From the NCBI GenBank assembly GCA_022823775.1, contig JAJEHI010000191.1, positions 1 to 40,756 of the forward strand: 40,756 nt of DNA. The letters run 5' to 3'. The notes under the pieces were generated by a model. That model saw only the letters and a list, made by a program, of their open reading frames with translations. It was not told where the DNA came from and did not search any database. The stretch is from Defluviicoccus sp. GTDB lineage: Bacteria; Pseudomonadota; Alphaproteobacteria; MPNO01. Positions 18,682 to 37,936 of the stretch are shown piece by piece (position 1 is the stretch's first letter; the number at the start of each line of letters is the position of its first letter). The translations under genes and the position numbers were made by a program.

Positions 18682-18693
18682 TTGATGCATCGC

Positions 18694-18722: not shown

Positions 18723-18842
18723 GCTTCGCATCCCGGTCCGCAGATGATGACCAGCGAGCGTTTGTCCGGTGCGGCGCACCGTCCGGTGCGTGCATCCGAA
18801 GCGGCCACTCTGCGGAACATCTGACACGCGGAGGACTCGAAG

Positions 18843-19355
18843 ATGCTCGGACTTGCATTGCTCTATGTCGGAGCCGTCCTGTTCCTGAACGGACTCTGGC
18901 TGATGGGCCGGATCGGCGATCGCGAGATCGCCATCATCAACATCTTTTCCGGCCTGCTCACGGCGGCCGTGGCGGCATATCTGGCCTTCGGGCCCGGTTC
19001 CGACGCGGGCGCGATCAGAGCCGCGGCGCTGACGCTGCTCTTCAGCTTCACCTATCTGTGGGTGGCCTACAACCGGTTCCACGACGTGGATGGCCGTGGT
19101 CTCGGCTGGTACAGCCTCTTCGTCGCCATCACCGTCGTTCCGGTGGCCGTGGTCACGTTCATGGGTGCGGATTCGACGTTGGACTACTGGTTGGGCCTGT
19201 GCTGGGCTGCGTGGGCGGTGTTGTGGTTCATGTTCTTCCTGTTGCTGGCGATGCAGAAACCGATCGCCAAGGCGACGGGGGCCATGACCTCGATACAGGG
19301 CGTGCTGACCGGCTGGCTGCCCGGCTACCTGATTCTCGAAGGCTGGCTTACCTAG
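18843..19355 (+). CDS. amiS: AmiS/UreI-family urea/amide channel
   Basis: A 170-residue inner-membrane protein with six hydrophobic helices, the length of AmiS/UreI. Family signatures include LYVGAVLFLNGLWLMG at the N-terminus, FTYLWVAYNRFHDVDGRGLGWYSLF in the centre and TSIQGVLTGWLPGYLIL at the C-terminus. These proteins let urea or short amides cross the membrane passively. Position behind formamidase supports formamide/acetamide or urea uptake. ATG 18843 follows GGAGG. No extra pH-sensing periplasmic histidines like those of Helicobacter UreI stand out. Confidence 0.92.
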   Translation: MLGLALLYVGAVLFLNGLWLMGRIGDREIAIINIFSGLLTAAVAAYLAFGPGSDAGAIRAAALTLLFSFTYLWVAYNRFHDVDGRGLGWYSLFVAITVVPVAVVTFMGADSTLDYWLGLCWAAWAVLWFMFFLLLAMQKPIAKATGAMTSIQGVLTGWLPGYLILEGWLT

Positions 19356-19362
19356 CCGGCAT

Positions 19363-19392
19363 TGCCGCCCGGCCCGTGGGGGCCGGGCGGCA
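19363..19392 (+). other. Strong GC hairpin between amiS and fmdB
   Basis: A perfect 12-base-pair stem: TGCCGCCCGGCC (19363-19374) and GGCCGGGCGGCA (19381-19392) around a 6-base loop. No T-run follows, so simple intrinsic termination is unlikely; partial termination or mRNA protection between operon genes is possible. Confidence 0.5.
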
Positions 19393-19419
19393 TCCGGCCG
19401 GGTCACGGAGGAGAGCGCG

Positions 19420-19752
19420 ATGCCGATTTACGGCTATGACTGCGAGGCATGCGGGCCTTTTACCGAGATACAGCCGATGAGCCGGTCGTCGGAGCCGATG
19501 CCCTGCCCGGATTGCGGCAACGCGGCGCCGCGCAGCATAAGCGCGCCGTTCATCGCCAACATGGACCCCAACAACCGGATCGCGCATCAGCGAAATGAAA
19601 AGAGCGCGGACGAACCCAGGGTGGTGTCCGGAAAGCCGGGCGGCCACAAGCATGGGCATGAGCACGGCCACAGCCATGGCGCGCGGCGCAACACAGGCCT
19701 CGGCGAGGGTCTGCACAACACGCACTCCCGCCCCTGGTCGATCGGTCACTGA
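19420..19752 (+). CDS. fmdB: FmdB-family zinc-ribbon protein with histidine-rich tail
   Basis: A 110-residue protein starting MPIYGYDCEACG, the FmdB zinc-ribbon signature. Two Cys pairs (Cys8-x2-Cys11 and CPDCG near residues 29-32) should hold one zinc. FmdB was named as a regulator of formamidase in Methylophilus, and the gene lies in the formamidase module here. The C-terminal part adds GGHKHGHEHGHSHG, a metal-binding histidine run not essential to the family. GGAGGAG precedes the ATG. Its action as transcription regulator is family lore and is not shown by the sequence. Confidence 0.88.
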   Translation: MPIYGYDCEACGPFTEIQPMSRSSEPMPCPDCGNAAPRSISAPFIANMDPNNRIAHQRNEKSADEPRVVSGKPGGHKHGHEHGHSHGARRNTGLGEGLHNTHSRPWSIGH

Positions 19753-20260: not shown

Positions 20261-20611
20261 TCAGCTCCCGCGGTAGGTCGTGTAGCCGAAAGGGGAGACC
20301 AGGAGGGGGACGTGGTAGTGCTCGTCGGCGCTCGCGATGCCGAAGCGGATCACCACCACGTCGAGGAAGGCGGGGGACCGTCCTTCGTGCCCGGCGTCGC
20401 GGAAATAGTCGCCGACGTGGAAGATCAGCTCGTACACCCCCGCTCCGAAATCCTCGCCCTCGAGGATCGGCCCGTCGCAGCGGCCGTCGGCGTTGGTGGT
20501 CGCGGCGGCGATCGCCCGGTTCTGGTCCTCCGCGCGGTAGAGCGCGATCCTGACGCCCGCCGCCGGGCGGCCGTTCGCGGTATCGAGCACGTGCGTCGTC
20601 AGCCTACCCAT
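20261..20611 (-). CDS. uraH: 5-hydroxyisourate hydrolase (transthyretin-like)
   Basis: A 116-residue transthyretin-related protein. The N-terminal LTTHVLDTANGRPAAGV and C-terminal HYHVPLLVSPFGYTTYRGS are the two HIUase signatures; the final YRGS distinguishes the enzyme from true transthyretin. His7, an Arg in the centre and His in HYHVPLL form the active site in the homotetramer. It converts 5-hydroxyisourate, the product of PuuD, to OHCU, the substrate of UraD. Last gene of the urate operon; its start overlaps the hydrolase stop by 8 bases. Confidence 0.95.
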   Translation of the reverse strand: MGRLTTHVLDTANGRPAAGVRIALYRAEDQNRAIAAATTNADGRCDGPILEGEDFGAGVYELIFHVGDYFRDAGHEGRSPAFLDVVVIRFGIASADEHYHVPLLVSPFGYTTYRGS

Positions 20612-21668
20612 CGCCCCGCCCCTCTCGCATGAACGCCGCCGCCAGGAAGCGGCCCACGTCGCGGTTCGACCGCGCTCTCACCTCGTCGTCGCGACCGATC
20701 AGATAGCCCTCGCCCGCGACGCAGAGCCCCAGGATCACCCGCCGCAGCCACGGGTCGGTCATCGGGAGCCAGGTGATCCGGTCGCGCGCGATGCCGTTGC
20801 GGCTGACCCGGAACCGGCAGCCGGCGAGGCTGCGGCCGATCTCGAACGGCCCCTCCCAGGCGCCGTCCCACTGGTGATAGGCGCCCTCGTAGGCGACGGT
20901 GCCGACCCGCGCGCCGCCCTGTCTCAGGTCGGATGCGATCTCCGCGCAGCGCTCCGGGTCGATCAGCGCATCCTCGTCGCCCCAGACCATCAGGATCGGC
21001 GCGCCGGTGGCCCTGCTGTCTTCGAGACGCGCGATGCAGGGACCGTAAAAGGCCACATGTGCGGCGAAGCGGAGCCCGCCGGGCGCCATCGTCTCGGCGA
21101 CCTGGGCATAGGCGGCGAGCACCGACGCCATGCCGCCGTAGGAGAAGCCCATCAGAGCCACCCTGCCCGGGTCGACCGCCTCGTGCCGGGACAGGAAGCG
21201 GAGCCCGGAATAGGCGTCGGCGATCATCATCGTCTCGGTGATCTCCAGCAGCCGTTCGATGAAGCCGCTGGCGCGGTCGCGGCGGCCGCCGAACACGTCG
21301 ATCACCAGGGCGGCGACGCCCATCGCCGCGAACTGCCGGGCATAGGTCAGCTCGCGCTGGTAGAGGACGCCCGCCGCGCCGTGCAGCAGAACCACCGCCG
21401 GCACCCGGACACCCTTCTTCGGGCCGGCCGGCAGGAACAGCGTCGCCGGCACGGGGGTCGGCTCGCCCGCCGCCGCGCGGACGTCGGACAGTCCGAACGG
21501 GCTCGTGCTTTCGAGCGTGACCGCTGTCCCGAGATTGTCCGCGTACCCGTCCACGGCGGGCCAGCTGCCGTCGGCGAGCGCCCGCGTCTGGGCCCAGGAC
21601 TGTGCGGAAAGGGTCGCCGCGAGGAGAAGCAGCGCGGCCGCGAACGCGCGCTGCCAGCGTCTATTCAA
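20604..21668 (-). CDS. Exported alpha/beta hydrolase (dienelactone hydrolase-like)
   Basis: A 354-residue protein. The N-terminus MNRRWQRAFAAALLLLAATLSAQSWAQT is a Sec signal peptide, with cleavage likely after Ala26. The fold has the nucleophile elbow GFSYGGM, the acid in VWGDEDALID and the base in AYHQWD, a Ser-Asp-His triad as in dienelactone-hydrolase-like enzymes. It is predicted to act in the periplasm. It is wedged between puuD and uraH, overlapping both by 8 bases, so it belongs to the urate operon although no known step of that pathway needs an exported esterase. Substrate unknown. Confidence 0.86.
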   Translation of the reverse strand: MNRRWQRAFAAALLLLAATLSAQSWAQTRALADGSWPAVDGYADNLGTAVTLESTSPFGLSDVRAAAGEPTPVPATLFLPAGPKKGVRVPAVVLLHGAAGVLYQRELTYARQFAAMGVAALVIDVFGGRRDRASGFIERLLEITETMMIADAYSGLRFLSRHEAVDPGRVALMGFSYGGMASVLAAYAQVAETMAPGGLRFAAHVAFYGPCIARLEDSRATGAPILMVWGDEDALIDPERCAEIASDLRQGGARVGTVAYEGAYHQWDGAWEGPFEIGRSLAGCRFRVSRNGIARDRITWLPMTDPWLRRVILGLCVAGEGYLIGRDDEVRARSNRDVGRFLAAAFMREGRGDG

Positions 21669-22854
21669 TCTCCGCGCCCTCGGCGATCCAGCGTCCGAGG
21701 ATGCGGCGTTCCTCGTCGGTCATCTCGGTCTCGTTGCCGACCGGCATGGTCCTGGTGAGCACCGCGACTGCCCGGATCTTCGGCGCCTGGTCGCGGATTT
21801 GCTCGGCGGTGTCGAAGGCGACGTCCTTGGGCGGCTTGTCGAAGTTCTCGTCGGACGGCTTCGCCGCGTGGCAGGAGACGCAGCGCCTGGCGACGATGTC
21901 GTAGGCCTCGGCGAAGGTCACGGGGTCGGCGTCCTCGTCCTCCGCGGTCATCGTCCCGCCGGGAAGGCTCGCATAGACCACCGCGAGGATGAGGACCACC
22001 GACGCCGGGATCGGCCAGAGCCTGCTCTGCCCCGCGTTGCGCAGGTTGAACCAGTGGCGCACCAGAGCGCCAGCTATGAACACCACGATGAGCACCGCCC
22101 AGGCATGTTCGTGGCCGAACGTGCTCGGGTAGTGGCTCGAGATCATGATGAAGATGACCGGCAGGGTCATGTAGTTGTTGTGGACCGAGCGCTGCTTGGC
22201 GTTGAAGGCGAGGCGCGCGTCGAGCGCGGTGCCGGCCTTGGTCGCGTCGACCAGCTTCTGCTGCGCCGGGATGATGATCATCCAGACATTGGCGACCATG
22301 ATGGTGCCGAGCATCGCGCCGACATGCATGTAGGCGCCGCGCGCGCTGAACACGTGGGTGAGCCCGAAAGCCACGAGGATCAGGAGCCCGAAGCCGATGC
22401 ACTCGACCACGGCGCCCCGGTGCCTGAGCGGCGACTTGTAGAGCACGTCGTAGACGAACCATGAGCCGGCCAGCAGCGCGAGGCCGATGGCGATGGCCTC
22501 GGGCTTGGAGAGATCCGCCACCGCGCGGTCGATCAGGTAGATCTCCGCCCCGTAATAGTACATCAGGCAAAGCAGCAGGAACCCGGTGATCCAGGTCCAC
22601 GCCGCCTCCCACTTGAACCAGTGCAGGGTGCGCGGCACTTCCTCGGGCGCGAGGTCCATCTTCTCGACGACGTAGAACCCGCCGCTATGGGTCATCCAGA
22701 GCTCGCCCTCGACGTTCCTGCGCGGCGGGTCGGGCTTCTCCAGGTGGCTGTCCAGCCACATGAACAGGAATGACGAGCCGATCCAGGCGATGCCGGTGAC
22801 GATGTGGGCCCATCTGAGGACCAGGTTGACCCACTCGCTGAGGATCGTTTCCAT
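21661..22854 (-). CDS. puuD: PuuD-type membrane urate oxidase with C-terminal cytochrome c
   Basis: A 397-residue protein. The N-terminal ~300 residues form the urate-oxidase membrane domain with about eight helices (starts METILSEWVNLVLRWAHIVTGIAWIGSSFLFMW). The C-terminal domain has one haem-c site, CVSCH at 325-329, with Met370 in TMPVGN as probable axial ligand. It oxidises urate to 5-hydroxyisourate and passes electrons to the respiratory chain rather than making peroxide. Encoded between uraD (9-base gap) and the exported hydrolase. Family assignment is firm because uraD, uraH and xdh are adjacent. Confidence 0.93.
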   Translation of the reverse strand: METILSEWVNLVLRWAHIVTGIAWIGSSFLFMWLDSHLEKPDPPRRNVEGELWMTHSGGFYVVEKMDLAPEEVPRTLHWFKWEAAWTWITGFLLLCLMYYYGAEIYLIDRAVADLSKPEAIAIGLALLAGSWFVYDVLYKSPLRHRGAVVECIGFGLLILVAFGLTHVFSARGAYMHVGAMLGTIMVANVWMIIIPAQQKLVDATKAGTALDARLAFNAKQRSVHNNYMTLPVIFIMISSHYPSTFGHEHAWAVLIVVFIAGALVRHWFNLRNAGQSRLWPIPASVVLILAVVYASLPGGTMTAEDEDADPVTFAEAYDIVARRCVSCHAAKPSDENFDKPPKDVAFDTAEQIRDQAPKIRAVAVLTRTMPVGNETEMTDEERRILGRWIAEGAEIE

Positions 22855-22863
22855 CGCCGCGTC

Positions 22864-23370
22864 TCAATCCCGCAACAGGTCGAACAGCCGGAACCGGCCG
22901 ATCAGACCGATATTGCGCAGCGCCTCTTCCATCTCGGCCGCTTCGTCGTTGGCGAGGCGCCGCTCGAAGGCCTCCAGAATACTGTCCTTCGTATGCAAAC
23001 GGACCGCAACGATAAAGGGAAAACCGAAACGGTCGCGGTAGGCCGCGTTGAGCCGGTGGAAGCGTTCGAACTCCTCGTCGTCCAGCCGGTCGAGCCCAGC
23101 GCCCTGCTGCTCGCGGGTCGAGTGCTCGGTCAGCGCCCCGGCGCGCGCCGCCTTGCCGGCGAGATCGGGGTGGGCGCGGATCAGGGCGAGCTTCATGTCG
23201 TCCTCGGCCGCGGCGATCGCCGCCGTCATCGCCTCGAACACGTCCTCGACCGAGGCGAAGGGTCGAGCGGCCCAGGCTTCGCCCGCGATCCACGGCGAAT
23301 GCTCGAAGACCGGCCCGAGCGCGGCGGTGAACTCCGCGCGCGAACTTTCGTTGAGCTCCGCGAGCTTCAC
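22864..23370 (-). CDS. uraD: OHCU decarboxylase
   Basis: A 168-residue helical protein starting at GTG 23370 inside the xdhB stop (GTGA overlap). Family motifs are VFEHSPWIAGEAWAARPF, LIRAHPDLAGKAA (catalytic His) and LTEHSTREQQGAGLD. It decarboxylates 2-oxo-4-hydroxy-4-carboxy-5-ureidoimidazoline stereospecifically to (S)-allantoin, which PuuE encoded at 11.7 kb can open. The frame stays open far upstream antisense to xdhB, but the domain begins at this GTG. Confidence 0.93.
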   Translation of the reverse strand: MKLAELNESSRAEFTAALGPVFEHSPWIAGEAWAARPFASVEDVFEAMTAAIAAAEDDMKLALIRAHPDLAGKAARAGALTEHSTREQQGAGLDRLDDEEFERFHRLNAAYRDRFGFPFIVAVRLHTKDSILEAFERRLANDEAAEMEEALRNIGLIGRFRLFDLLRD

Positions 23371-25673
23371 GGCGCCCTGACCTCCTCGACCGCCGCCAGC
23401 ACGCGTTCCGGCGTGGCCGGAGGATCGAGGCGCACGAAGCGCCGATGGCGGGCGAGCCCGGACACCGCGTCCCGGATCGCGAGCCAGACCGACAGCGCCA
23501 GCATAAGCGGCGGCTCGCCCACCGCCTTGGAACGGAAGATCGTCGGATGCGGGTTGGGCGAATCCTCGAGGATGTGGACGTTGAAGACGGGCGGGACGTC
23601 GCGGCTGCCGGGGATCTTGTAGGTCGAGGGGCCGTGCGTCCGGAGGCGCCCCTCGCCGTCCCACCAGAGCTCTTCCATCGTGACCCAGCCCATCCCCTGC
23701 ACGAACCCGCCCTCGATCTGGCCGAGATCGATCGCCGGGTTCAGCGAAGTGCCGCAATCCTCCAGGATGTCGGCCCGCAGCACCCGGTTCTCCCCTGTCA
23801 GCGTGTCGATCGCCACCTCGGCGATGCAGGCGCCGTAGGCATAGTAGAAGAACGGCCGGCCCTGCATCGTCTCGGGGTCCCAGTGGATGTCGGGGGTCCG
23901 GTAAAAGCCGGTGGCCGAAAGCGAGACGCGCTCGGCCCAGCTCAGCTTGGCCAGCTCGTCGAAGGCGAGGCTCTGGTTGCCGGCGTAGATGCGGTTGTCC
24001 GCGAAGCGGATTTCGCCGGGCGCGACCCCGAAATGCTCCGCCGCGACGCCGGTCATCCGCTCCTTGATCCGGTTCGCCGCGTCGAGCGCCGCCATGCCGT
24101 TGAGGTCGGAGCCGGACGAGGCGGCGGTGGCCGAGGTGTTGGGCACTTTGTCGGTCGAGGCGGGCGAGACCCGGATGCGGTCGAGGTCGATCTGGAACGC
24201 CTCCGACACCACCTGGGCGATCTTGACGTAGAGCCCCTGCCCCATCTCGGTCCCGCCGTGGTTGAGGTGGACGCTGCCGTCGGTATAGACGTGGACCAGG
24301 GCGCCGGCCTGGTTGAGGCTCTTGACGTTGAAGGAGATGCCGAACTTGATCGGCACCATCGCGATGCCCTTCTTGATGACCGGGCTGGATTCGTTGAACG
24401 CGGCGACCTCGCGCCTGCGCGCCTCGTAATCCGCCTTTTCGGAAATGCCGTCCACCACCTCCTCGACGATGTTGTCGTCGACGACCTGCCCGTAGGGCGT
24501 CACGTTCTTCGGCGCATCGCCGTAATAGTTGGCGCGGCGCACCGCCTCGACGTCGAGCCCGAGCGTGCGCGCGATATGCTCGATCGCGAGCTCGATGACG
24601 ACCATCCCCTGCGGCCCGCCGAAGCCCCGGAAGGCGGTGTTGGAGACCGTGTTGGTCTTGCAGCAATAGCCGCGGAAATGGGCGTTCGGAATGTCGTAGC
24701 AATTGTCCGCGTGGCACAGCGCGCGTCCCATCACCGAGGTCGAAAGATCGGCGACGTTGCCCGCCCGCGCGGCGAACAGGATGTCGAGCCCGGCGATCCG
24801 GCCCGTGTCGTCGAACCCGACTTCGTAGCGGAACAGGAAGTCGTGCCGTTTGCCGGTGACGATCATGTCGTCGTCGCGCGCGAGCCTGAGCTTCGCCGGC
24901 CGGCCGGAAACCCGCGCCAGCACCGCGGCGATGGCGGCCACGATGGTGGCCTGGCTTTCCTTGCCGCCGAACGCGCCGCCCATCCGCCGGACCTCGACGG
25001 TGACCGCGTTGGCCGGCACGCCGAGCGTGTGCGCGACGCCGTGCTGGACCTCGGTCGGATGCTGGGTCGAGGAATAGACCAGCATGTCGGAGTCTTCCCG
25101 CGGCACGGCGAGCGCGACCTGACCCTCGAGGTAGAAATGATCCTGCCCGCCGCACCCCGCCTCGCCCGCGACCCGGTGCGGCGCGGCGGCGATTGCCGCG
25201 GCCGCGTCGCCCCGTTTCATGACCTGCGGCCGGGCGACATAGCTCTCGCGCTCCAGCGCGTCCTCTATGGAGAGTATCGGCTCCAGCACCTCGTACTCCA
25301 CCTCGACCAGCGCCGCCGCGCGCCGCGCGGTGTCGCGGTCCGAGGCGGCGACGGCGGCGACCGGGTGGCCGACATATTCGGCAACGCCGTCGGCCAGGAT
25401 CGGCTCGCCCGAAAAGATCGGGGCCACGTCGTTGACCCCCGGGATGTCGGCGGCGGTGACGACGGCGCTCACCCCGGGGACCGCGCGCGCCGCCGCGCGG
25501 TCTATCGAGAGGATGCGGGCGTGCGGGTGCGGGCTGGTGGCGAGCCAGATTTCCTGCGTGCCGGGCACCGCCGGCATGTCGTCGATATAGACCGCCCGCC
25601 CGGTGACGTGCTTCTCGGCGCTGTCGTGGCGCCATGCCCGGTGGACCCCGCCCTTGAGCGCGGAGGCTGTCAC
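23367..25673 (-). CDS. xdhB: Xanthine dehydrogenase, molybdopterin-binding subunit
   Basis: A 768-residue large subunit starting at GTG 25673 (GTGA overlap with xdhA). The N-terminal a/b hammerhead domain (HVTGRAVYIDDMP) precedes the molybdenum domain. Conserved sites are GQDHFYLEGQ, RRMGGAFGGKE, NTAFRGFGGPQG, GGTEMGQGLY and the C-terminal KAVGEPPLML holding the catalytic Glu. It oxidises hypoxanthine and xanthine to urate at a sulfurated Mo-pterin centre, passing electrons to the FeS/FAD subunit. The sulfuration chaperone gene xdhC is not in the window. No frameshift seen. Confidence 0.95.
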   Translation of the reverse strand: MTASALKGGVHRAWRHDSAEKHVTGRAVYIDDMPAVPGTQEIWLATSPHPHARILSIDRAAARAVPGVSAVVTAADIPGVNDVAPIFSGEPILADGVAEYVGHPVAAVAASDRDTARRAAALVEVEYEVLEPILSIEDALERESYVARPQVMKRGDAAAAIAAAPHRVAGEAGCGGQDHFYLEGQVALAVPREDSDMLVYSSTQHPTEVQHGVAHTLGVPANAVTVEVRRMGGAFGGKESQATIVAAIAAVLARVSGRPAKLRLARDDDMIVTGKRHDFLFRYEVGFDDTGRIAGLDILFAARAGNVADLSTSVMGRALCHADNCYDIPNAHFRGYCCKTNTVSNTAFRGFGGPQGMVVIELAIEHIARTLGLDVEAVRRANYYGDAPKNVTPYGQVVDDNIVEEVVDGISEKADYEARRREVAAFNESSPVIKKGIAMVPIKFGISFNVKSLNQAGALVHVYTDGSVHLNHGGTEMGQGLYVKIAQVVSEAFQIDLDRIRVSPASTDKVPNTSATAASSGSDLNGMAALDAANRIKERMTGVAAEHFGVAPGEIRFADNRIYAGNQSLAFDELAKLSWAERVSLSATGFYRTPDIHWDPETMQGRPFFYYAYGACIAEVAIDTLTGENRVLRADILEDCGTSLNPAIDLGQIEGGFVQGMGWVTMEELWWDGEGRLRTHGPSTYKIPGSRDVPPVFNVHILEDSPNPHPTIFRSKAVGEPPLMLALSVWLAIRDAVSGLARHRRFVRLDPPATPERVLAAVEEVRAP

Positions 25674-27085
25674 AGCGCGAACACCCCGGTGGGCGCGTCC
25701 GCCGCGCCCGCCGTCTGGAGGTAGAGGCGGTCCAGCAGGTTGGCGGCGACCGCGGCGCGGTAGCGGGCGCCGGCGCGGAAATCGTCGATGGGCGCGAAAT
25801 CGTCGGCGATGGCGCGCTTCGCGGCCGCGACCGCTTCCTCCGACCACGCCTTGCCGATCAGCGCCCGTTCGGCTTCGCGGGCGCGTTTCGGCGTCGCCGC
25901 CATGCCTCCATAGGCGATCCTCGCGTCGGTCACCCGGCCGTCCGCGAGGGTGAGGCGGTAGGCGCCGATCGCGGCCGAGATGTCCTGGTCGTAGCGCTTG
26001 GAGACCTTGTAGGTGCGAAAAACGCGGTCGGGCGCAAGACGCGGCACCCGCACCGCCTCGATGACTTCGTCCGGGCGCAGATCGGTCCTGCGGTAGTCGA
26101 GAAAGAAATCCTCGATCGGCATCTCGCGCGTCCCGTCCGGCCCGCGCAGGACCAGCGTCGCGTCGAGCGCGATCAGGCAGGGCGGCATGTCGCCGATCGG
26201 GGATGCGTTGCCGATATTGCCGCCGATCGTGCCGAGATTGCGGATCTGCCGCGAGCCGATGCGCCGGATCAGCTCGCCCATCCCCGGGTATTCGGCGTCC
26301 AGCACGGGAAGCGCCCGCGTATAGGTCGCCGCCGCGCCGATTTCGATTTCGTCATCGCGGACCTCCAGGCGGGAAAGCTCTTCCACCCGCGCGACCGAGA
26401 TTATGGCGTCGAAGGCGCGGCGCTCCCTGGAGAACAGGAGCCCGAGATCGGTGCCGCCGGCGAGGATCGGGGCATCGGGGTGCCGGGTCCGCAACGCGAC
26501 CAGCTCGTCCAGCGTCCGGGGAGCGAGGAAGATCTGCGCGCCCGCCTCGTAGTCCGGCCCGGCTTCGGGAACCGGCGCGGCGGGCGCGGGTCGGGGCGCG
26601 CGCGGCGCCTTGCGGGCGGCATCGACGATCGGCCGGTAGCCGGTGCAGCGGCAGAGATTGCCCGCGAGCGCATCGTGGATGGTCTCGACCTCCGGCTTCT
26701 CGCCGCCTTCGAGAAAGGCGAAGAGCGCCATCGCGATTCCCGGCGTGCAGAACCCGCACTGGCTCGCGTCGGTCTCGACCAGCGCCCGCTGGAGGGGGTG
26801 GAGCCGCCCGTTGTCGGCCAGCCCCTCGATCGTGACCAGCGCCCGGCCCGCGAGCTGCGGCACCGTCATCAGGCAGCTGTTGACCGCCTCGTGGCGCAGC
26901 CCGCCGCCGTCCGGGATGCCGAGCACCACCGTGCAGGCGCCGCAATCGCCCTCGGCGCAGCCTTCCTTGGTGCCGGTGAGGCGCTTTTCCGTCCGCAACC
27001 AGTCGAGCACCGTCGTCGCGGGCGGCACGTCCCGGATCTCGCAGGGCTCGCCGTTGAGCAGGATACGGATCGATCGCCCGGCCAC
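25670..27085 (-). CDS. xdhA: Xanthine dehydrogenase, FeS/FAD subunit
   Basis: A 471-residue small subunit. The plant-type [2Fe-2S] cluster uses Cys43, Cys48, Cys51 and Cys71; the second cluster uses Cys110, Cys113, Cys145 and Cys147 (QCGFCTPG, NLCRCTGY). The FAD domain follows, with ILAGGTDLG and LGTIGGNIGNASPIGD. It passes electrons from the molybdenum subunit to NAD+. GTG 27085 is chosen over farther upstream starts because family-like sequence begins at RSIRILLNGEPCEI and a GAGGC stretch precedes it. First gene of the urate operon; the promoter should lie in 27086-27316, part of which is a repeat. Confidence 0.94.
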   Translation of the reverse strand: MAGRSIRILLNGEPCEIRDVPPATTVLDWLRTEKRLTGTKEGCAEGDCGACTVVLGIPDGGGLRHEAVNSCLMTVPQLAGRALVTIEGLADNGRLHPLQRALVETDASQCGFCTPGIAMALFAFLEGGEKPEVETIHDALAGNLCRCTGYRPIVDAARKAPRAPRPAPAAPVPEAGPDYEAGAQIFLAPRTLDELVALRTRHPDAPILAGGTDLGLLFSRERRAFDAIISVARVEELSRLEVRDDEIEIGAAATYTRALPVLDAEYPGMGELIRRIGSRQIRNLGTIGGNIGNASPIGDMPPCLIALDATLVLRGPDGTREMPIEDFFLDYRRTDLRPDEVIEAVRVPRLAPDRVFRTYKVSKRYDQDISAAIGAYRLTLADGRVTDARIAYGGMAATPKRAREAERALIGKAWSEEAVAAAKRAIADDFAPIDDFRAGARYRAAVAANLLDRLYLQTAGAADAPTGVFAL

Positions 27086-27196
27086 GCCTCGCCCAGCCTC
27101 CGTTCGCCTCGGAAGCCGGCGATTATAGGAGCGACATGGAAAGCGCGGAAGACACGTGGGGCGGGGGCGTTCTTTCCCGCCACTCTCGCGATGCGC

Positions 27197-27300
27197 CACC
27201 CTCCCCCGGCCCCTCCCGCAAGCGGGAGGGGGGAAGATGAGGAGGAGCCGGCGAGCGAGTCCCCCTCTCCCCTGCGGGGAGAGGGCCGGGGTGAGAGGGA
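27197..27300. repeat. GC-rich dispersed REP-like repeat, copy 1
   Basis: Holds two perfect hairpins: CCCTCCCGC-AA-GCGGGAGGG (27211-27230) and CCCTCTCCCC-TGC-GGGGAGAGGG (27263-27285), followed by GCCGGGGTGAGAGG. A second copy of the same layout lies at 31733-31836. Lies between xdhA and gpt, both on the - strand. Confidence 0.75.
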
Positions 27301-27316
27301 TCTCTCGGGAAGCGCC

Positions 27317-27799
27317 CTACCCCGGCGGGGCGGCCTGTACGATGGGCTGGACGAACTGGAGCTCCATGTCCCAGGGGAAATAGATCCAGGTGTCCTGGCT
27401 GACCTCGGTGATGAAGGTGTCGACCATCGGCCGTCCGGCGGGCTTGGCGTAGACCGTGGCGAAATGCGCCTTGGGCAGCATGTCGCGGACCAGCGAGGCG
27501 GTCTGCCCGGTATCGACCAGGTCGTCGACGATCAAGAGCCCCTCGCCGTCCCCCTCGATGCCCTTGAGGATTTCGATCCCGCCCTGGTCCTTCCAGTCGT
27601 AGGAGGTCACGCAGACCGTGTCGATCATGCGGAGCTCGAGCTCGCGCGCGACGATCGCGGTCGGCACCAGCCCGCCGCGGGTGACCGCGATCACCCCGTT
27701 CCACGGCCCCAGAGAGGCCAGCCGCCAGGCGAGCGCGCGCGCGTCCCGGTGAAGCTGCTCCCACGAGACCGGGAAACCCTTGGTGTATCTCTCCTCCAT
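27317..27799 (-). CDS. gpt: Xanthine(-guanine) phosphoribosyltransferase
   Basis: A 160-residue type I phosphoribosyltransferase. The PRPP-binding motif is [31 protein letters not shown] and the C-terminal [11 protein letters not shown] are typical of Gpt. It salvages xanthine (and guanine) to XMP/GMP. Its place upstream of the xanthine dehydrogenase genes sets salvage and breakdown of the same base side by side. Preceded on the - strand by the DUF924 gene with an 18-base gap, so probably in one operon. Confidence 0.92.
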
Positions 27800-28528: not shown

Positions 28529-28967
28529 ACGGAGCTTATACAGGTTACTTGACGAGCGATCGGCTGGCGCGGATCGGCAACCGGAACGTCGTCGCGCCGG
28601 GGCGGACGCGCATCTCTCGCAGCGACCGTCACGGTCGACGCGGCGCCTTCCTCCCGTCGGCATGCCCGGACTTGTGCCATTGCTGTCCGGTTTAATTCCG
28701 GTGGACGGGGCGCGAGGCTTGAGTGCAAGCGGGTTTTCGACGGTTCGCGCGAGTCGGGACACGGACTTACGAGCGCCGGCATCGCCCGTCGCCGTCACCC
28801 CACGGCGTCATGGCCGGACTCGTTCCGACCATCCACGTCTTGCCGCATCGCGGTGCGCGCCGGGAGGGAACCGGGCGGCGGCCCCACGTGGATGCCCGGA
28901 ACAAGTCCGGGCATGACGGAAGAGCTGTAGCGGGCCTCCCCCGTCAAGTAGCCCGTATAAGCTCCGT
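28529..28967. mobile_element. MITE-like non-autonomous element, 439 bp
   Basis: The ends are 26-base inverted repeats (28529-28554 and 28942-28967) matching at 24 of 26 positions, beginning ACGGAGCTTATAC at each outer end. Immediately outside both ends is the 4-base direct repeat GATT (28525-28528 and 28968-28971), as expected for a target-site duplication. No transposase is encoded inside. Size, ends and duplication fit a miniature inverted-repeat transposable element; the parent transposon is not identified. A short chance match for GATT cannot be excluded. Confidence 0.6.
28807..28917. repeat. 111-bp palindromic dispersed repeat, copy A
   Basis: Two inverted 31-base arms (28807-28837 and 28887-28917) with core GGACTCGTTCC / GGAACAAGTCC surround a 49-base middle. 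A second copy of exactly the same length lies at 31918-32028. It sits within the MITE-like element. Confidence 0.8.
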
Positions 28968-30420: not shown

Positions 30421-30450
30421 TTGGCACGAATCGGTATCGATATGTATGCT
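30421..30450 (+). promoter_or_regulatory. Candidate promoter with extended -10
   Basis: TTGGCA (30421-30426), an 18-base spacer and TATGCT (30445-30450) preceded by TG. It falls in an AT-richer patch right after the desaturase-family gene and would drive the small hypothetical gene starting at 30487. Confidence 0.35.
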
Positions 30451-30486
30451 AAGTGCCGGCTCTTGCTACCATATGTGGGGTCCTGG

Positions 30487-30771
30487 GTGGCAACGCGTCG
30501 ACATGACACGCTGAAAGAACACGGGCAGGGCGATTTGTTCGGCGCCGCGCCGGCGGAGGCCTACCGGCCCGACCCGGAGCGGGTGCGCAGCCGGATCGAC
30601 GGCATCCTGGCGGAACTGCGCGGCGAGATATCGGCGCGGCACTGGGAATACGGTCGGGCATCGTTCTTCAGGATGGCGTTCCCCAACTTGACATGCTGGC
30701 TGCCCGACGACGAGGCCGCGCGGCTGGAGTCGGAATTCGAGGCCGAGATGGCGCGCTTGGGAGCGCTCTGA
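30487..30771 (+). CDS. Small conserved hypothetical protein
   Basis: A 94-residue protein from a GTG start; the frame stays open upstream to 30421, but that part overlaps a likely promoter. The C-terminal portion RPDPERVRSRIDGILAELRG...FPNLTCWLPDDEAARLESEFEAEMARL resembles small proteins of unknown role seen in many alphaproteobacteria. It is helical, acidic and soluble with one cysteine. GQGDLFGAAP near the start looks like a flexible linker. No function can be given. Start choice is uncertain. Confidence 0.6.
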   Translation: MATRRHDTLKEHGQGDLFGAAPAEAYRPDPERVRSRIDGILAELRGEISARHWEYGRASFFRMAFPNLTCWLPDDEAARLESEFEAEMARLGAL

Positions 30772-31836: not shown

Positions 31837-31917
31837 CCTCTCCGGCGACAATCCGCGAGCGAGCGTCTCGCCTTCGCTCGGTTGCCGCCCCGATTTCCCC
31901 GGTCGTCATCCCCCGCC

Positions 31918-32028
31918 GTCATGGCCGGACTTGTTCCGGCCATCCACGTCTTACCGCATCGCGGTGCGAGCCGGGACGGAACGAGGCAGTGGCCCCTCGT
32001 GGATGCCCGGAACAAGTCCGGGCATGAC
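31918..32028. repeat. 111-bp palindromic dispersed repeat, copy B
   Basis: Two inverted 31-base arms (31918-31948 and 31998-32028), core GGACTTGTTCC / GGAACAAGTCC. Length, arms and the middle CCGCATCGCGGTGCG match copy A at 28807-28917. Such GTCATG...CCACG repeats are common between genes in this bacterial group. Confidence 0.8.
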
Positions 32029-32071
32029 AACGGTTGGGAGAAGCCCGGCCGAAAAGACCGGCGGGCCGACC

Positions 32072-32199
32072 TTACCCCGCCAGGAACCCCCGCACGATCT
32101 CCAGCGTCTCGGCGCCCCGTTCGAGTTGGGGGATGTGGCCGCAGTCGGGGAGGATTTCGACCCGGCTGCCGGCGATGCGCGCGCCGAACCCGGCGGCGT
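32072..32199 (-). pseudogene. 3' remnant of alpha/beta-hydrolase gene (direct duplicate)
   Basis: These bases repeat the 3' end of the hydrolase gene at 35862-36668 in the same orientation, with an exact offset of 3790. Over 32074-32199 I count 6 differences in 126 bases (about 95% identity). The copy encodes the last ~41 residues including the catalytic His region (CGHIPQLE) and ends in a stop codon (TAA instead of TGA). Sequence upstream of the match is unrelated, so it lacks a start and most of the fold. Confidence 0.88.
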
Positions 32200-32242: not shown

Positions 32243-33019
32243 TCAGCCGGAGACGAACTCGGTCTTTCGCTGGGCCCATCCGGTGAGCCGGCGCTCGAGC
32301 ACGGCGAAACACGCGTAAAGCCCGATCCCCATCGAGGCGAGGAGAACCAGACCGGCAAAGACGAGCGGCATGTTGAAGTCCGAACTCGCCAGAACCATCA
32401 TGCTGCCGATGCCGAGATTGGCGGCCACGGTTTCCGAAACCACGGTGCCCACGAAGCTCAGCGTGATGGCGATTTTCAGGGACGCGAAGAAATAGGGCAG
32501 CGACCGCGGCAACCCGACATGCCACAGGATGTCGAGCTTGTTCGCGCCGAGCGCGCGCAGCACGTCCTCGAGCTCGGGTTCGGTCGTCGCGAGGCCCGTG
32601 GCGACATTGACCACCACCGGAAAGATGCAGATCACCAGCGAGGTGAGAATGGCCGGCACGGTGCCGATCCCGAACCAGACGACGAAGACCGGGACCAGCG
32701 CGACCTTGGGTATCGAATAGAAGCCGACCAGCATCGGGTAGCACGCGTTGTACAGAACCTTCGACGACCCGATGATCGCGCCGATGATCACGCCCGCCAG
32801 CACGCCTCCGGCGAAGCCTGTCGTCGTCGTCATCAGCGTCTGCAGGCCGTGACGCCGGATCCCGTGGAACTGGTCGACCAGGACGACGACGAACTCGCTC
32901 GGCCGCGGCAGGATGAAATCGGGTATGCCGGTGGCCAGGCACATCAGCTCCCAGAAAACGAAGAATCCGAGGATGATGAGCGCCGACCACAGCCAGTTCA
33001 AATTCTTGAGCCTGTTCAT
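32243..33019 (-). CDS. ABC transporter permease (SsuC/TauC type)
   Basis: A 258-residue inner-membrane protein with about six helices. The cytoplasmic coupling loop, RALGANKLDILWHVGLPRSLPYFFASLKIA, carries the EAA-type motif of BPD transporter permeases, and FYSIPKVALVPVFVVWFGIG is typical of the nitrate/sulfonate/taurine group. It should form a homodimeric channel with the ATPase encoded just upstream (ATGA overlap). Last gene of the operon; a hydrolase gene fragment lies behind it. Confidence 0.92.
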   Translation of the reverse strand: MNRLKNLNWLWSALIILGFFVFWELMCLATGIPDFILPRPSEFVVVLVDQFHGIRRHGLQTLMTTTTGFAGGVLAGVIIGAIIGSSKVLYNACYPMLVGFYSIPKVALVPVFVVWFGIGTVPAILTSLVICIFPVVVNVATGLATTEPELEDVLRALGANKLDILWHVGLPRSLPYFFASLKIAITLSFVGTVVSETVAANLGIGSMMVLASSDFNMPLVFAGLVLLASMGIGLYACFAVLERRLTGWAQRKTEFVSG

Positions 33020-33897
33020 GGTCCCGGCGCTTCCCCGACGGTCTCGTCGAGCTGGAAATGTTCGATCCGGGCGCGCAGATCGTGGATCAGCTGCACCGCG
33101 GTATCGCGGAAGAGGTCGTCGAGCGCGCGCGGGCGTGGCAGGTCGACCCGGCGGTCGAATATGATCCGTCCGGGCCGGGCGCTCATCACCACCACGCGGT
33201 CGGCGAGATAGACCGCCTCCCGCAGGTCGTGGGTGACCAGGAGCACGGTGGGGCGCCGGTCCATCCAGAGGGACTGCAACACGCCCCACAGCTCCTCCCG
33301 GGTGAAGGCGTCCAGCGCGCCGAACGGCTCGTCCAGCAGCAAGAGGCTGGGCTCATGGATCAGCGCGCGGCAGAGCGAGGCCCGCTGCAGCATCCCGCCG
33401 GACAGTTGCCAGGGGAATTGCCGGCTGAAGCCGTGCAGCCCGACGCGGCGCAGCAGCGCCTCGGCGCGGGCGGTATTCCGTTCCCGGTCGCGGCGGAAAT
33501 TCTCCCGGTAGGGGCGCACGATCTTGAGCGGCAGCAGGACGTTGTCGATCGTCCTGCGCCACGGCAGCATGGTCGGGTTCTGAAAGGCCATGCCGACGAT
33601 CTTGATCGGCCGGGTCACGATCTCCCCGGCGACCGACACCACCCCTTCGGTCGCCGGGTTGAGCCCGGAGACCAGCTTCATCAGGGTCGACTTGCCGCAC
33701 CCGCTGGGTCCGACGATGGCGACGAACTCGCCTGCCTCGATGGCGAGCTCGGTGTCCTTGAGCGCAAGCGTGCCGGTTTCGGGATCGCCGTAGCGAAGCG
33801 CGACATTGCGGAGCGCGACGGGAGCGCCCGCCGACGATCCCGACCCGGCCGGCGGATCGTCGTCCTCCGCCGGCCGGGCCCGGGCCAACTCGTTCAT
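33016..33897 (-). CDS. ABC transporter ATPase (SsuB/TauB type)
   Basis: A 293-residue ATPase. Walker A is GPSGCGKST (63-71), the signature is LSGGM (165-169), Walker B is LLLLDE (185-190) and the switch His is in LLVTHDLREA. A Q-loop (FQNPTMLPWR) fits the nitrate/sulfonate/taurine class. The N-terminal ~25 residues are a low-complexity extension. Its start overlaps the stop of the binding-protein gene (TGATG) and its stop overlaps the permease start. Confidence 0.94.
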   Translation of the reverse strand: MNELARARPAEDDDPPAGSGSSAGAPVALRNVALRYGDPETGTLALKDTELAIEAGEFVAIVGPSGCGKSTLMKLVSGLNPATEGVVSVAGEIVTRPIKIVGMAFQNPTMLPWRRTIDNVLLPLKIVRPYRENFRRDRERNTARAEALLRRVGLHGFSRQFPWQLSGGMLQRASLCRALIHEPSLLLLDEPFGALDAFTREELWGVLQSLWMDRRPTVLLVTHDLREAVYLADRVVVMSARPGRIIFDRRVDLPRPRALDDLFRDTAVQLIHDLRARIEHFQLDETVGEAPGP

Positions 33898-34934
33898 CAG
33901 CCCATGCGGTCCTTCAGGGACGGCAGGAAGCGGGACTGGAATACCTCGTCCGGTTCCGGCGTCCGATTCAGCTTGAAGGCCCTGGTGACGATATCGATCG
34001 ACCGCTTGAGCCGCTCGGGATCGGTATCGCCCATGCCGATCTTCTTCATCTCGGGCGACAGGATGAGATGTTCCAGCGTCGCCAGCAGCCGTTCCTTTTC
34101 CGAATTCCGCTTGAGCAGCGGCTCGCGGCGCATCACCGCGTCGAGCCCGATCTCCGGGTTCGCCACCACCTCCCAGAACGCCTTGTTGATCGCCCCGACC
34201 ATGCCCTTGACCTTGTCGGGGTGCTTGTTGAGCATTTCCTGGCTCACCATGACGGCATTGGAATAGAGGTCCATGCCGAAATCGGCGAAGCGCATGAAGT
34301 CGAGGTCGCGGTCGGGATTCATGCCCACCCGCAGAGCGTCGAACAGAACCGTCAGGTGGTAACCCGATACGCCCTGCACCTTGCCCTGCTTGAGCATGGT
34401 GACCCGCAAATTGGGCTTCATGTGCTGCCAGCTGACTTTCGACGCGTCGATGCCGGCGATATTGGCGAAGGCGGGAAACAGCTTGAACGCGCCGTCATTG
34501 ACCGGCGCGCCCAAGGTCATGCCCTCAAGCTGCTTGGGCTTCATGATCTTGGCCGCCTTGGGCGTCGCGATGACGAATGGCGTCTGGTTGTAGATCATGT
34601 AGACGGCGACCGGCTGCTTGCCCTTGTTCTTCGCGGCAAAGCGTGTGATCGCGTTGATGTCGCCGAAACCGGCATCGTAGGCCGTACTCGCCACCTTCGG
34701 CACGGCGGCGCCCGAACCCGCCCCCTGGTCCAGCTGGATATCGATGCCGGCCTGCTTGAAGTAACCCTTGTCGTCGGCCAGGAAGAACCAGGCTTGGGGG
34801 CCCTGGAACTTCCAGTTGAGGATGAAACGAACCTTGAGCGGGTCGGCCGCCTGTGCCGCCCCGCCGCCGAGCGCGGCGGCCGCGGCAAGGCCGAGGACCG
34901 CGAGGACCCCGCGCCGCGGGAATTTCGATGCCAT
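33897..34934 (-). CDS. ABC transporter substrate-binding protein (NMT1/THI5-like)
   Basis: A 345-residue periplasmic binding protein. The N-terminus KFPRRGVLAVLGLAAAAALGGGAAQA is a signal peptide with an RR pair suggesting Tat export. After it comes the NMT1 fold: LKVRFILNWKFQGPQAWFFLADDKGYFKQAGIDI. Members of this fold bind pyrimidine thiamin precursors (ThiY), taurine, sulfonates or riboflavin. ATG 34934 follows GGGAGA; an upstream in-frame start would place 40 odd residues before the signal. The 142 bases before it separate the enzyme genes from the transporter genes and could hold a second promoter. Confidence 0.9.
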   Translation of the reverse strand: MASKFPRRGVLAVLGLAAAAALGGGAAQAADPLKVRFILNWKFQGPQAWFFLADDKGYFKQAGIDIQLDQGAGSGAAVPKVASTAYDAGFGDINAITRFAAKNKGKQPVAVYMIYNQTPFVIATPKAAKIMKPKQLEGMTLGAPVNDGAFKLFPAFANIAGIDASKVSWQHMKPNLRVTMLKQGKVQGVSGYHLTVLFDALRVGMNPDRDLDFMRFADFGMDLYSNAVMVSQEMLNKHPDKVKGMVGAINKAFWEVVANPEIGLDAVMRREPLLKRNSEKERLLATLEHLILSPEMKKIGMGDTDPERLKRSIDIVTRAFKLNRTPEPDEVFQSRFLPSLKDRMG

Positions 34935-35076: not shown

Positions 35077-35865
35077 TCAGCCGTCGTCGAGCGCGCGCGC
35101 GACGTCCTCGGAACGGGCGATGAAGCCGTAAATGCCGCGGACCAGATATTTCACCGCCCGCACGACATAGTCGGGCGATGTCGTCGCCGCGCAATCGTCG
35201 ATCAGTATGCAGTCGTAGCCGAGGAATCCCGCGTCCTGCATCGTCGCGAGCACGCATCGATCGACATTGACGCCGGCGAACAGCAGCGTCCTCGCATCGA
35301 GATTCCTGAGAACGCTGTCCAACTCGTTGTCCCAGAAACCGCTCAGCCGGTACTTGTCGACATGGATGTCGCCGCGCGCGGTCTCGAGATCGTCGCAAAT
35401 GCGCGCGCCCCAGCCGCCTTTTTCCAGCACGGGCGCGCGCCCGCCCTCCGGCGTGTCGCCATAGCCGACGCCGTCGCCGGTCGGATTCCCCGAATGCAGG
35501 ACGGTGGGGTTCAGGTTCATCATATCCGCCCGATTGCCCCAGTTGAGCCAGACGACCGGGACGCGCGCCTTGCGGAGCGCCGGCAAGAAGGCGTTGAGCG
35601 GATCGATCGGCGCGCGAACCGGCGCAATGTCGATCCCGCGCGAGTCGAACCAGCCGCCTTTGGAACAGAAGTCGTTCTGCATGTCGACGACGACCATGGC
35701 GGTCCGGCTGAGGTCGATCGTCAGGGATTGGGGGTCGGCCTCGAAGGAGACCGGCCTGGGCGGCACGGCCGCGCGCACGAGATCGGCATGACCGGCGCTG
35801 ACGCCCCAGGAGTTCCAGGGCGTGGCGCCAAGCCTGCCCTTGCCGGGTTTTCGCTCGTTTCTCAC
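35077..35865 (-). CDS. Isochorismatase-family cysteine hydrolase (RutB-like)
   Basis: A 262-residue protein from GTG 35865, which overlaps the hydrolase stop (GTGA). The catalytic triad is Asp61 (VVVDMQNDF), Lys171 (DKYRLSGF) and Cys204 (NVDRCVLAT). DKYRLSGFWDNELDSVLRNLD is close in layout to the RutB subgroup, which hydrolyses peroxyureidoacrylate in uracil breakdown. Other members are N-carbamoylsarcosine amidase, biuret hydrolase and nicotinamidase. Cytoplasmic. The N-terminal ~15 residues beyond the usual family start are unusual; a later start has no obvious codon. Confidence 0.87.
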   Translation of the reverse strand: MRNERKPGKGRLGATPWNSWGVSAGHADLVRAAVPPRPVSFEADPQSLTIDLSRTAMVVVDMQNDFCSKGGWFDSRGIDIAPVRAPIDPLNAFLPALRKARVPVVWLNWGNRADMMNLNPTVLHSGNPTGDGVGYGDTPEGGRAPVLEKGGWGARICDDLETARGDIHVDKYRLSGFWDNELDSVLRNLDARTLLFAGVNVDRCVLATMQDAGFLGYDCILIDDCAATTSPDYVVRAVKYLVRGIYGFIARSEDVARALDDG

Positions 35866-36668
35866 CCCGCCAGGAACCCCCGCACGATCTCCAGCGTCTC
35901 GGCGCCACGTTCGAGCTGCGGGATGTGGCCGCATTCGGGGAGGATTTCGACCCGGCTGCCGGCTATGCGCGCGCCGAACTCGGCGGCGTAGGCGGACGGG
36001 ATCAACGCGTCGTTCTCGCCCCAGACGATCAGCGTCGGCGCAGCGATCCGGTGGAGGCGCTTGGCGAGCCCCTTCTCGGGGATCGGCCAGACGAACTTGC
36101 CGGTGCAGCCGAGCGCCCAGATCAGCCCGGCGGTGGCCGCGAGCGCCTCGCCCGGGTCCTCGGGCGGCGCGAACATCGCCCGCGCCGCGGCGCATTGCGG
36201 ATCCCTGAAGAGCAGCGCGGGAAGCTCCTCCGGCGGGGTCATGATCCAGTTGGCGATCGGCAAATCCTCGCGCCAGAGGCCGATCGGGGCGAGCAGCACC
36301 AGCCGCTCGAACAGGCCGGGGGCGTGCGCCGCGAGCTCGGCCGCCATCATCCCGCCGAAGGACTGCCCGACCGCCGCGACCGGCCCTTCGAGGTCGAGCG
36401 CGCGGATCGCCTCGTCGTAGATCAGCACGAGGTCCCAGAGGTCGTCGACCGCGTGGATCGCGTCCGCGTCGCCCCCGCCGGTCCCCGGATGCTCGGGCGC
36501 GATGACGGTCCAGTCGGCGCTCAACGCCTCCAGGAAGGGATCGAAGTGCAGCCCCGCGGCCGGGTGGAGATAGACCAGCGGCGGGCCCGACCCGGCCGTC
36601 CTGAAGCGCATCGCGAGCCGCCCGCCCCACACCTCGACCGCGCGTTCGCCAAGCTCGATCCCGGCCAT
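35862..36668 (-). CDS. Alpha/beta hydrolase (RutD/MhpC-like)
   Basis: A 268-residue alpha/beta-hydrolase. The nucleophile is Ser103 (VGQSFGG), the acid Asp220 (WGENDAL) and the base His248 (CGHIPQ). No signal peptide, so cytoplasmic. It follows the flavin monooxygenase gene by TGATG overlap and leads into the cysteine hydrolase by GTGA. Such enzymes open C-C or ester/amide bonds in ring-cleavage pathways; RutD is one distant example. The last 126 bases are duplicated 3.8 kb away at 32074-32199. Confidence 0.88.
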   Translation of the reverse strand: MAGIELGERAVEVWGGRLAMRFRTAGSGPPLVYLHPAAGLHFDPFLEALSADWTVIAPEHPGTGGGDADAIHAVDDLWDLVLIYDEAIRALDLEGPVAAVGQSFGGMMAAELAAHAPGLFERLVLLAPIGLWREDLPIANWIMTPPEELPALLFRDPQCAAARAMFAPPEDPGEALAATAGLIWALGCTGKFVWPIPEKGLAKRLHRIAAPTLIVWGENDALIPSAYAAEFGARIAGSRVEILPECGHIPQLERGAETLEIVRGFLAG

Positions 36669-37936
36669 CACGCGGCTCCCGCGAGAGCGTCGAGCTTCGC
36701 GCCCGCGGGCTCCGGAGTGCCGCCGAGGCGTTCGGGCCACCAGCGATGCGGCCAGTCGTCGCCGACCCCGGCCTCGCGCAGCCGGGGCAGCACGGACTCC
36801 GCGAAGCGCGCCACGTTCTCCTCCACCAGGTCGCGCGGCATCGAGCCCATCTTGAGCATCGTCACCAGATTGCCGACGCGGAAGTCGCGGGCGATCCCGA
36901 TCAGCCGCTCGGCCACCGTGTCGGGCGAGCCGACGACGGCAGCGCCGACCTCCAGGATGCGCTCGATGTCCGCGTGGCGCATCTCGTGCGCGAAGCCGAA
37001 ATCGCCCGCTTGGTCCTCCAGCAGGAAGCGGATGCCGGGGAGCGAGATGCCGCCCGGAATCGCGAGCTTGCCGAGCTGGGTCGCGCCCGGCCCCTTGTTG
37101 AGGAAATATTCGAGATGGGGGCCGTAGACCCGCTCGGCCTCCTCGTCTGTCTCGCCGACGCAGACCGAGGCCATGAACGCCATGCGGTTGGGGTTGGCGG
37201 GCGCGTCGAGCTCGTCGGCGATCTCCCAGAAGCGGTCGAACACGCGCCTCGCGGTGAGCTCGCTGCCGAACCAGCCGAAATAGTTGAAGCCGAAATTGTT
37301 CTCCAGCACGAGCCGCATCGTCGCCGGGTTGCCGACGCCGGTGATCCACACCGGCAGCGGCCGCTGCAGCGGCCTGGGCCAGATATTGACCGAGGGGAGC
37401 TGGGTAAAGCGGCCGTTCCAGGCGAACGGTTCGGGGTCGCGCCAGGCGCGCAGGATGAGCCGCAGATTCTCCTCGTAGCGCCGGCGCACCTCGATCGGCG
37501 GGACGCCGTTGTTGATCGCCGCGTCGAACATCAGACCGACCGGGAAGCCGGCCATCAGCCGCCCGCCCGAGATGCAGTCGATCATCGCGTATTCCTCGGC
37601 GACGCGGACCGGCTCGCGCGCCTTGCCGAGCGACCGGCCGACCGGATAGACCGCGACGTCGAGCCCCTCGGTCTCGGTGGCGTAGCCGATCGCCGAGCCG
37701 ATCAGGCTCGGGTTGGCGATCATGTCGTAGCTGGTCTGGGCGTGCTCGGTGAAGGCGACCCCGTCGAAGCCCGACCGGGCCGCCTGCATGATGTAGTCGA
37801 GATAGTCGCGGAACGCGGCGCGCACCTCGCCCGGCTCGGCGAGCGCGTAAGGAGTCGTCACCGTGCCCTCGTGGCGGTCCTGGAAGTCGTCGGGAAATTT
37901 CCGGTACTGGTTCTGCGCGAACGCCACGATCTTCAT
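36668..37936 (-). CDS. LLM-class flavin-dependent monooxygenase (RutA/DszA-class fold)
   Basis: A 422-residue luciferase-like TIM barrel, longer than the 336-residue paralogue at 13.8 kb. Signatures include MKIVAFAQNQYRKFPDDF, SGFDGVAFTEHAQTSYDM, EGLDVAVYPVGRSLGKAREPVRVAEEYAMIDCISGGRLMAGFPVG and LPVWITGVGNPATM. It needs reduced FMN from a reductase not encoded nearby. Followed at once by two hydrolases and an uptake system, it likely starts an oxidative ring opening or dealkylation. ATG 37936 follows GGGGAGAG; an earlier in-frame start adds 19 unusual residues. First gene of the operon. Confidence 0.9.
   Translation of the reverse strand: MKIVAFAQNQYRKFPDDFQDRHEGTVTTPYALAEPGEVRAAFRDYLDYIMQAARSGFDGVAFTEHAQTSYDMIANPSLIGSAIGYATETEGLDVAVYPVGRSLGKAREPVRVAEEYAMIDCISGGRLMAGFPVGLMFDAAINNGVPPIEVRRRYEENLRLILRAWRDPEPFAWNGRFTQLPSVNIWPRPLQRPLPVWITGVGNPATMRLVLENNFGFNYFGWFGSELTARRVFDRFWEIADELDAPANPNRMAFMASVCVGETDEEAERVYGPHLEYFLNKGPGATQLGKLAIPGGISLPGIRFLLEDQAGDFGFAHEMRHADIERILEVGAAVVGSPDTVAERLIGIARDFRVGNLVTMLKMGSMPRDLVEENVARFAESVLPRLREAGVGDDWPHRWWPERLGGTPEPAGAKLDALAGAA

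Follow-up and report, generated by a model that had tools for sequence, protein, structure and literature searches.

A 40,756-nt stretch of DNA from Defluviicoccus sp. (hereafter the window) carries, at positions 35077-37936 of the - strand, three overlapping genes for a luciferase-like monooxygenase, an alpha/beta hydrolase and a cysteine hydrolase, followed by the genes of an ATP-binding cassette (ABC) importer. On balance, and with modest confidence, we read this locus as two catabolic modules that have been joined: a monooxygenase-hydrolase pair, probably combining a Baeyer-Villiger-type enzyme with an esterase, has been fused to a cysteine hydrolase-importer module for ureides. The evidence comes from a duplicated gene end at the junction, from the neighbors that each module keeps in other genomes, and from the active-site residues of the enzymes.

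All six genes are genuine open reading frames on the - strand. The luciferase-like FMN-dependent monooxygenase (LLM, 422 aa; 36668-37936) matches Bac_luciferase (PF00296, E 3.6e-38), the alpha/beta hydrolase (ABH, 268 aa; 35862-36668) matches Abhydrolase (PF12697/PF00561), and the isochorismatase-fold cysteine hydrolase (CYS, 262 aa, GTG start; 35077-35865) matches Isochorismatase (PF00857, E 4.4e-33). The importer consists of an NMT1/THI5-type periplasmic binding protein (SBP; 33897-34934; NMT1, PF09084, E 6e-29), an ATPase (33016-33897; PF00005) and a permease (32243-33019; PF00528). These Pfam profiles agree with the gene classes named in an earlier, sequence-only reading of the locus. Adjacent genes overlap by 1 base (LLM/ABH and SBP/ATPase) or by 4 bases (ABH/CYS, where the CYS GTG start overlaps the ABH stop, and ATPase/permease), and the only non-overlapping step in the run is the 142-nt spacing from CYS to SBP; the genes may be co-transcribed. 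An Rfam search of the window gave zero matches.

The CYS-importer block lies between two direct copies of a 129-nt stretch from the 3' end of ABH, a repeat that had escaped the earlier reading. One copy (35861-35989, -) lies within the intact ABH; the other (32071-32199, -), 95% identical, is an orphan end on the far side of the block. The copies differ at 8 of the 129 nt, and since 5 of the differences fall at third codon positions, the orphan looks as if it came from a working allele. The ABH end is present in two copies each in this genome (G000) and in two congeners, G003 and G004 (the congeners are Defluviicoccus sp. metagenome-assembled genomes). With only two copies per genome in these three, a genome-wide mobile repeat was ruled out.

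Gene orders differ among the congeners. G003 has the same layout as the window, including the ABH-end repeat. In G004, a Type ISP restriction-modification gene separates CYS from ABH, and a 61-nt ABH end adjoins CYS. G005 and G002 carry LLM-ABH with neither CYS nor importer beside it; the G005 importer is on another contig, where it adjoins a Rieske gene, and no CYS was found in the upstream DNA examined. The six-gene order, whose absence elsewhere the sequence-only reading had named as grounds for rejecting its proposal, is confined to two of five genus genomes, is interrupted in one and is missing from two, and it occurs at none of the 31 close loci outside the genus that are described below. 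Because the duplicated ABH 3' end flanks the CYS-importer block and the congener gene orders differ, the repeat is the mark of a recombination that joined two modules. In G003 and G004 the contigs stop close to the importer; linkage to the purine genes described below is seen in the window alone.

Three further features of these genomes touch the same region. The Type ISP gene stands beside ABH fragments in two congeners (L022:4530-7655 and L023:4080-7532). In G004 it is the gene between CYS and ABH, whereas in G005 it flanks LLM on the opposite side, and it may have moved along with ABH sequence or by way of it. A family of small proteins that share a QGDLFG motif and match nothing in Pfam is found near the importer in the window (30421-30771, +) and at L022:7725-8009 and L023:3726-4055, adjoining the restriction-modification gene in the two congeners. 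The LLM of G002 (L024:3892-5242) is split into two matches that differ in frame close to the 5' end of the gene (~4164-4181), due to a frameshift or an assembly error.

LLM and ABH travel together. A scan of 84,980 genomes with two peptide patterns, hence a sample of the closer relatives, yielded 39 loci with LLM relatives, and an ABH homologue lies directly after LLM in all 39. Neighborhoods were compared by searching them for ring-cleavage and lower-pathway enzymes, flavin reductases and enzymes acting on nitrogen heterocycles. Around the 31 close non-Defluviicoccus pairs (28 genomic and 3 plasmid loci, two of the latter nearly alike), a ring-cleavage dioxygenase is present at 19 and a flavin reductase at 26, and a nitrogen-heterocycle enzyme or a window-type SBP at none. 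Neither ring-cleavage, flavin reductase nor nitrogen-heterocycle enzymes were found at seven distant loci (~35% identity) or in 15 control regions, which were arbitrary alphaproteobacterial regions not matched by phylum; several of the relatives' contigs are short. For example, the Pseudomonas pair is accompanied by catechol 2,3-dioxygenase (381 bits, cut-off 320), an HsaD/BphD-like hydrolase, a hydratase, acetaldehyde dehydrogenase and an aldolase; Rhodococcus plasmids have the order LysR-LLM-ABH-flavin reductase-catA; the Caballeronia pair has hydroxyquinol-type neighbors, an intradiol-type dioxygenase and maleylacetate reductase; and in one alphaproteobacterium the pair lies beside a complete meta-cleavage set, its genes named from sequence reading. 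LLM-ABH is a conserved two-gene unit linked to catechol-type pathways in relatives, and the Defluviicoccus LLMs group within the clade of these catechol-linked relatives by maximum likelihood. No report on the pair was found in the open-access literature, where the only helpful case for LLM with catechol genes was the progesterone-oxidizing enzyme described below. Skatole/indole degradation was considered as a known home for it and dropped; the paper found concerns styrene-type monooxygenases, not LLM. An LLM-ABH pair also occurs at L055, whose record title, possibly wrong, names a Bifidobacterium breve metagenome-assembled genome.

A chemical role for the pair can be proposed. LLM would be an FMNH2-dependent group C monooxygenase that receives FMNH2 from a separately encoded flavin reductase; the single related reductase found in this genome is on another contig, and none was found in the window or operon. 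A catechol 2,3-dioxygenase homologue, which would suit such a role, is likewise elsewhere in the genome. The likeliest chemistry is a type II Baeyer-Villiger reaction, in which LLM would place an oxygen beside an aryl carbonyl to give an ester. ABH, acting as a canonical serine hydrolase, would split the ester to a catechol-type phenol, which extradiol or intradiol dioxygenases would then cleave. Such an ester-making oxygenase coupled to an ester-cleaving serine hydrolase would fit a pair that feeds catechol pathways. The triad of ABH is Ser103-Asp220-His248; among 43 aligned ABHs from such pairs, Ser is kept in 40, and Asp and His in 42. With the AlphaFold2 model of LLM (mean pLDDT 86.5), the top Foldseek matches are RslO1, 2I7G, PuwE and diketocamphane monooxygenase, and RutA comes at rank 50. 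Of these, diketocamphane monooxygenase is the type II Baeyer-Villiger enzyme encoded on the CAM plasmid (4UWM/5AEC); it falls within ranks 6-11, with luciferase and others scoring alike. The top NCBIfam family for LLM is TIGR03858, at 88 bits against a cut-off of 462. LLM has 29 matches across this genome, one of them a distant luciferase-like monooxygenase in the window itself (13920-14561, +; E 1.9e-14 against LLM), directly after a CoA-transferase-like gene.

The same two modules could operate with no ester involved if LLM were a phenol hydroxylase or a dealkylating monooxygenase and ABH a C-C hydrolase of the meta-cleavage type. ABH does score against the PcaD, HsaD and BphD families of NCBIfam, and the pair is found in operons with catechol 2,3-dioxygenase. 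However, those operons already hold an HsaD/BphD-like hydrolase by the dioxygenase, which would make ABH redundant, and ABH also accompanies catA and hydroxyquinol pathways, where such a hydrolase is unneeded. We therefore regard this account as rather unlikely.

The second module has a different set of associates. CYS has the triad Asp61-Lys171-Cys204, kept in all 25 aligned members, and is by alignment a true homologue of RutB (28% identity over 228 aa). Its scores are far below the equivalog cut-offs for RutB (123 vs 378 bits) and for BiuH (NF050097; 128.7 vs 370 bits). The nearest CYS relatives (~50-60%) adjoin ABC importers of three kinds (spermidine-like, BMP nucleoside-like and NMT1), with creatininase, cupin, amidase, AtzH-like, ring-opening amidohydrolase and allantoinase-like genes as further neighbors. 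Likewise, the nearest plasmid relatives of SBP (50-53%) are beside allantoinase-like, ring-opening amidohydrolase (AtzD equivalog), formamidase and DUF3830 genes. A distant genome, G209, from another family of the class, has CYS (56%), SBP (57%), ATPase (60%) and permease (64%) in the order of the window. An AtzD/TrzD-type enzyme and AllG/FdrA are close by, and neither LLM nor ABH has a match there. In the Defluviicoccus genomes the AtzD-type genes are on other contigs, and the single one of this genome stands with AllG and FdrA.

Because these relatives adjoin amidohydrolase-type genes and the window holds purine genes, SBP and CYS most likely serve a nitrogen-rich heterocycle or a ureide, as far as sequence can tell. 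SBP, ATPase and permease would import a small compound of this kind, and CYS would hydrolyze an amide or ureido bond, either of the imported compound itself or of something formed from it later. Uptake of a ureide or heterocycle by this module would suit a window that also carries purine-to-allantoin genes. On this reading, recombination at the ABH 3' end brought both modules into one close-packed run in two Defluviicoccus-type genomes. In Defluviicoccus a paralogous NMT1 importer (L089:2266-5841 and L090; SBP 38%, ATPase 62%, permease 51%) adjoins pyrE-like and dihydroorotase-like genes, names that come from reading the sequence only, hinting at pyrimidine-related uptake elsewhere in the genome.

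The sequence-only reading had proposed a Rut-like operon: a pathway for a pyrimidine or other N-heterocycle, taken up by ABC transport and opened oxidatively by the monooxygenase. In such a single pathway, LLM would open an imported pyrimidine-type ring, and CYS and ABH would process the fragments. Three enzyme classes in a close-packed gene run, the identity of CYS to RutB and the occurrence of this importer group with N-heterocycle enzymes are consistent with it. The monooxygenase step, however, is contradicted at several levels. LLM has no match to the RutA family (TIGR03612, cut-off 498 bits) at E 1e-3 in an NCBIfam search; over all of this genome the RutA profile gives 20 matches, none above the cut-off and the window LLM not among them, and no genome of the genus searched has a match above it. 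Pairwise identity between LLM and RutA is 22% over 189 aa. The oxygen site of RutA is formed in part by T105, N134 and V136, and their mutation, T105S excepted, abolishes activity (PMC7662398); the oxygen-site motif is common to CmoJ, DmoA and DszA (PMC8234197). In an alignment these residues become V99, G130 and P132 in the window LLM, and the position of Asn134 is Gly in all 33 LLMs of LLM-ABH pairs. E. coli RutD has Ala at the elbow position where ABH carries Ser, and ABH scores 35 bits against a RutD equivalog cut-off of 238.5. Furthermore, elsewhere LLM-ABH keeps company with catechol-type genes, lacking CYS and importer, and the gene order varies within the genus. The likeness of LLM to RutA, and of ABH to RutD, is at the superfamily level only; the earlier reading, too, had called the proteins no close orthologues. 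Profiles, residues and neighbors rule out Rut orthology, and we consider a single Rut-like pathway improbable. What survives of that proposal is a role for the importer and CYS in taking up and hydrolyzing a heterocycle or ureide rich in nitrogen, to which the relatives' neighbors and the purine genes point; ring opening by the monooxygenase does not.

Several observations weigh against the two-module reading that we prefer. Selection for joint expression could also explain why ABH and CYS overlap by 4 bases in two genomes and are close together in a third. No ring-cleavage gene adjoins the Defluviicoccus LLM-ABH, and 12 of the 31 close loci have no ring-cleavage gene in the DNA fetched, some of it from short contigs. 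ABH might act on C-C or amide bonds. Within its clade the Defluviicoccus LLM is on a long branch (0.62), so the substrate of the pair may have shifted. A further reading is a functional fusion, in which the Defluviicoccus LLM-ABH turned, after the join, to an imported N-heterocycle and the locus encodes one pathway of uptake and oxidative ring opening without the RutA oxygen motif; we give this little credence.

A sulfonate or taurine importer with a desulfonating LLM, as in SsuABCD, is highly improbable and is ruled out as such by family scores: SBP matches SsuA/TauA weakly and the ATPase and permease match the SsuB/C and TauB/C families, but every match is far below its curated cut-off (SBP, 40 vs 163.5 bits for SsuA_fam and 21 vs 304 for taurine; LLM, 23 vs 518 bits for the SsuD family), LLM is only 22% identical to SsuD over 227 aa, SBP relatives adjoin amidohydrolases, and CYS would have no role in such a system.

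The window contains other nitrogen-related genes. A purine-to-allantoin cluster (20261-27799, -), on which the sequence-only reading made no remark, comprises the genes for HIUase (20261-20611), a PuuD-type urate oxidase (21661-22854; PF06181), uraD (22864-23367), xdhB (23367-25673), xdhA (25670-27097) and xanthine phosphoribosyltransferase (27317-27799), with a dienelactone-hydrolase-like gene (20604-21668) among them. HIUase, uraD, xdhB, xdhA and the phosphoribosyltransferase are above NCBIfam equivalog cut-offs. On the + strand, at 16376-19752, a cupin (16376-16828), formamidase FmdA (17443-18681; NCBIfam FmdA, 708 bits vs cut-off 500), an AmiS/UreI channel (18843-19355; PF02293) and an FmdB-type zinc ribbon (19420-19752; TIGR02605) form in series a formamide or urea-type nitrogen module. 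A repeated element at 31904-32033 has imperfect inverted arms (31913-31948 and 31998-32033) and a 125-nt, 90% identical copy at 28793-28917.

Across Actinomycetota and Pseudomonadota, LLM-ABH accompanies genes for catechol, hydroxyquinol or meta-cleavage routes, which makes the pair a candidate upper pathway; strains of Pseudomonas, Rhodococcus or Amycolatopsis that grow in culture offer a way to look for its substrate. With the CYS-importer module, a further importer type joins an uncharacterized family of ureide/amide hydrolases that is found with AtzD-type enzymes. The junction illustrates how a recombination join can make two modules resemble one operon.

Four known systems can be compared with the locus. 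The E. coli Rut operon (rutABCDEFG) has the same broad enzyme classes, and its RutB shares with CYS both homology and the Asp-Lys-Cys triad; it differs in the oxygen-site residues and profile of RutA, in the Ala of RutD against the Ser nucleophile of ABH, in having RutG in place of an ABC importer, and in that LLM-ABH is typical of other neighborhoods. RutC, RutE and RutG were not recognized among the six genes, no dedicated profile search having been made. The NMT1/THI5-type importers ThiY, SsuA and TauA have the same binding-protein fold and three-part importer, but SBP reaches the cut-off of no curated family, and the nearest relatives found are uncharacterized and amidohydrolase-linked. 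The cyanurate or ureide clusters with BiuH or AtzD/AtzE/AtzH-type enzymes are nearer to the second module: CYS belongs to the BiuH/RutB branch of the isochorismatase fold and its relatives occur with AtzD-type, amidase and AtzH-like genes and ABC importers, whereas CYS itself is far below the BiuH equivalog cut-off and the only AtzD-type gene of this genome is on another contig. For the first module, the comparison is with the type II Baeyer-Villiger monooxygenases. LLM is ~20% identical to 3,6-diketocamphane monooxygenase (4UWM). The luciferase-like enzyme EGO55_13860, which converts progesterone to testosterone acetate by Baeyer-Villiger oxidation (PMC12239570), was compared by description, not by sequence, and its own cluster, unlike LLM-ABH, has no dedicated hydrolase. 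With both enzymes LLM would share the group C luciferase fold, a separate flavin reductase and a logical pairing with an ester hydrolase.

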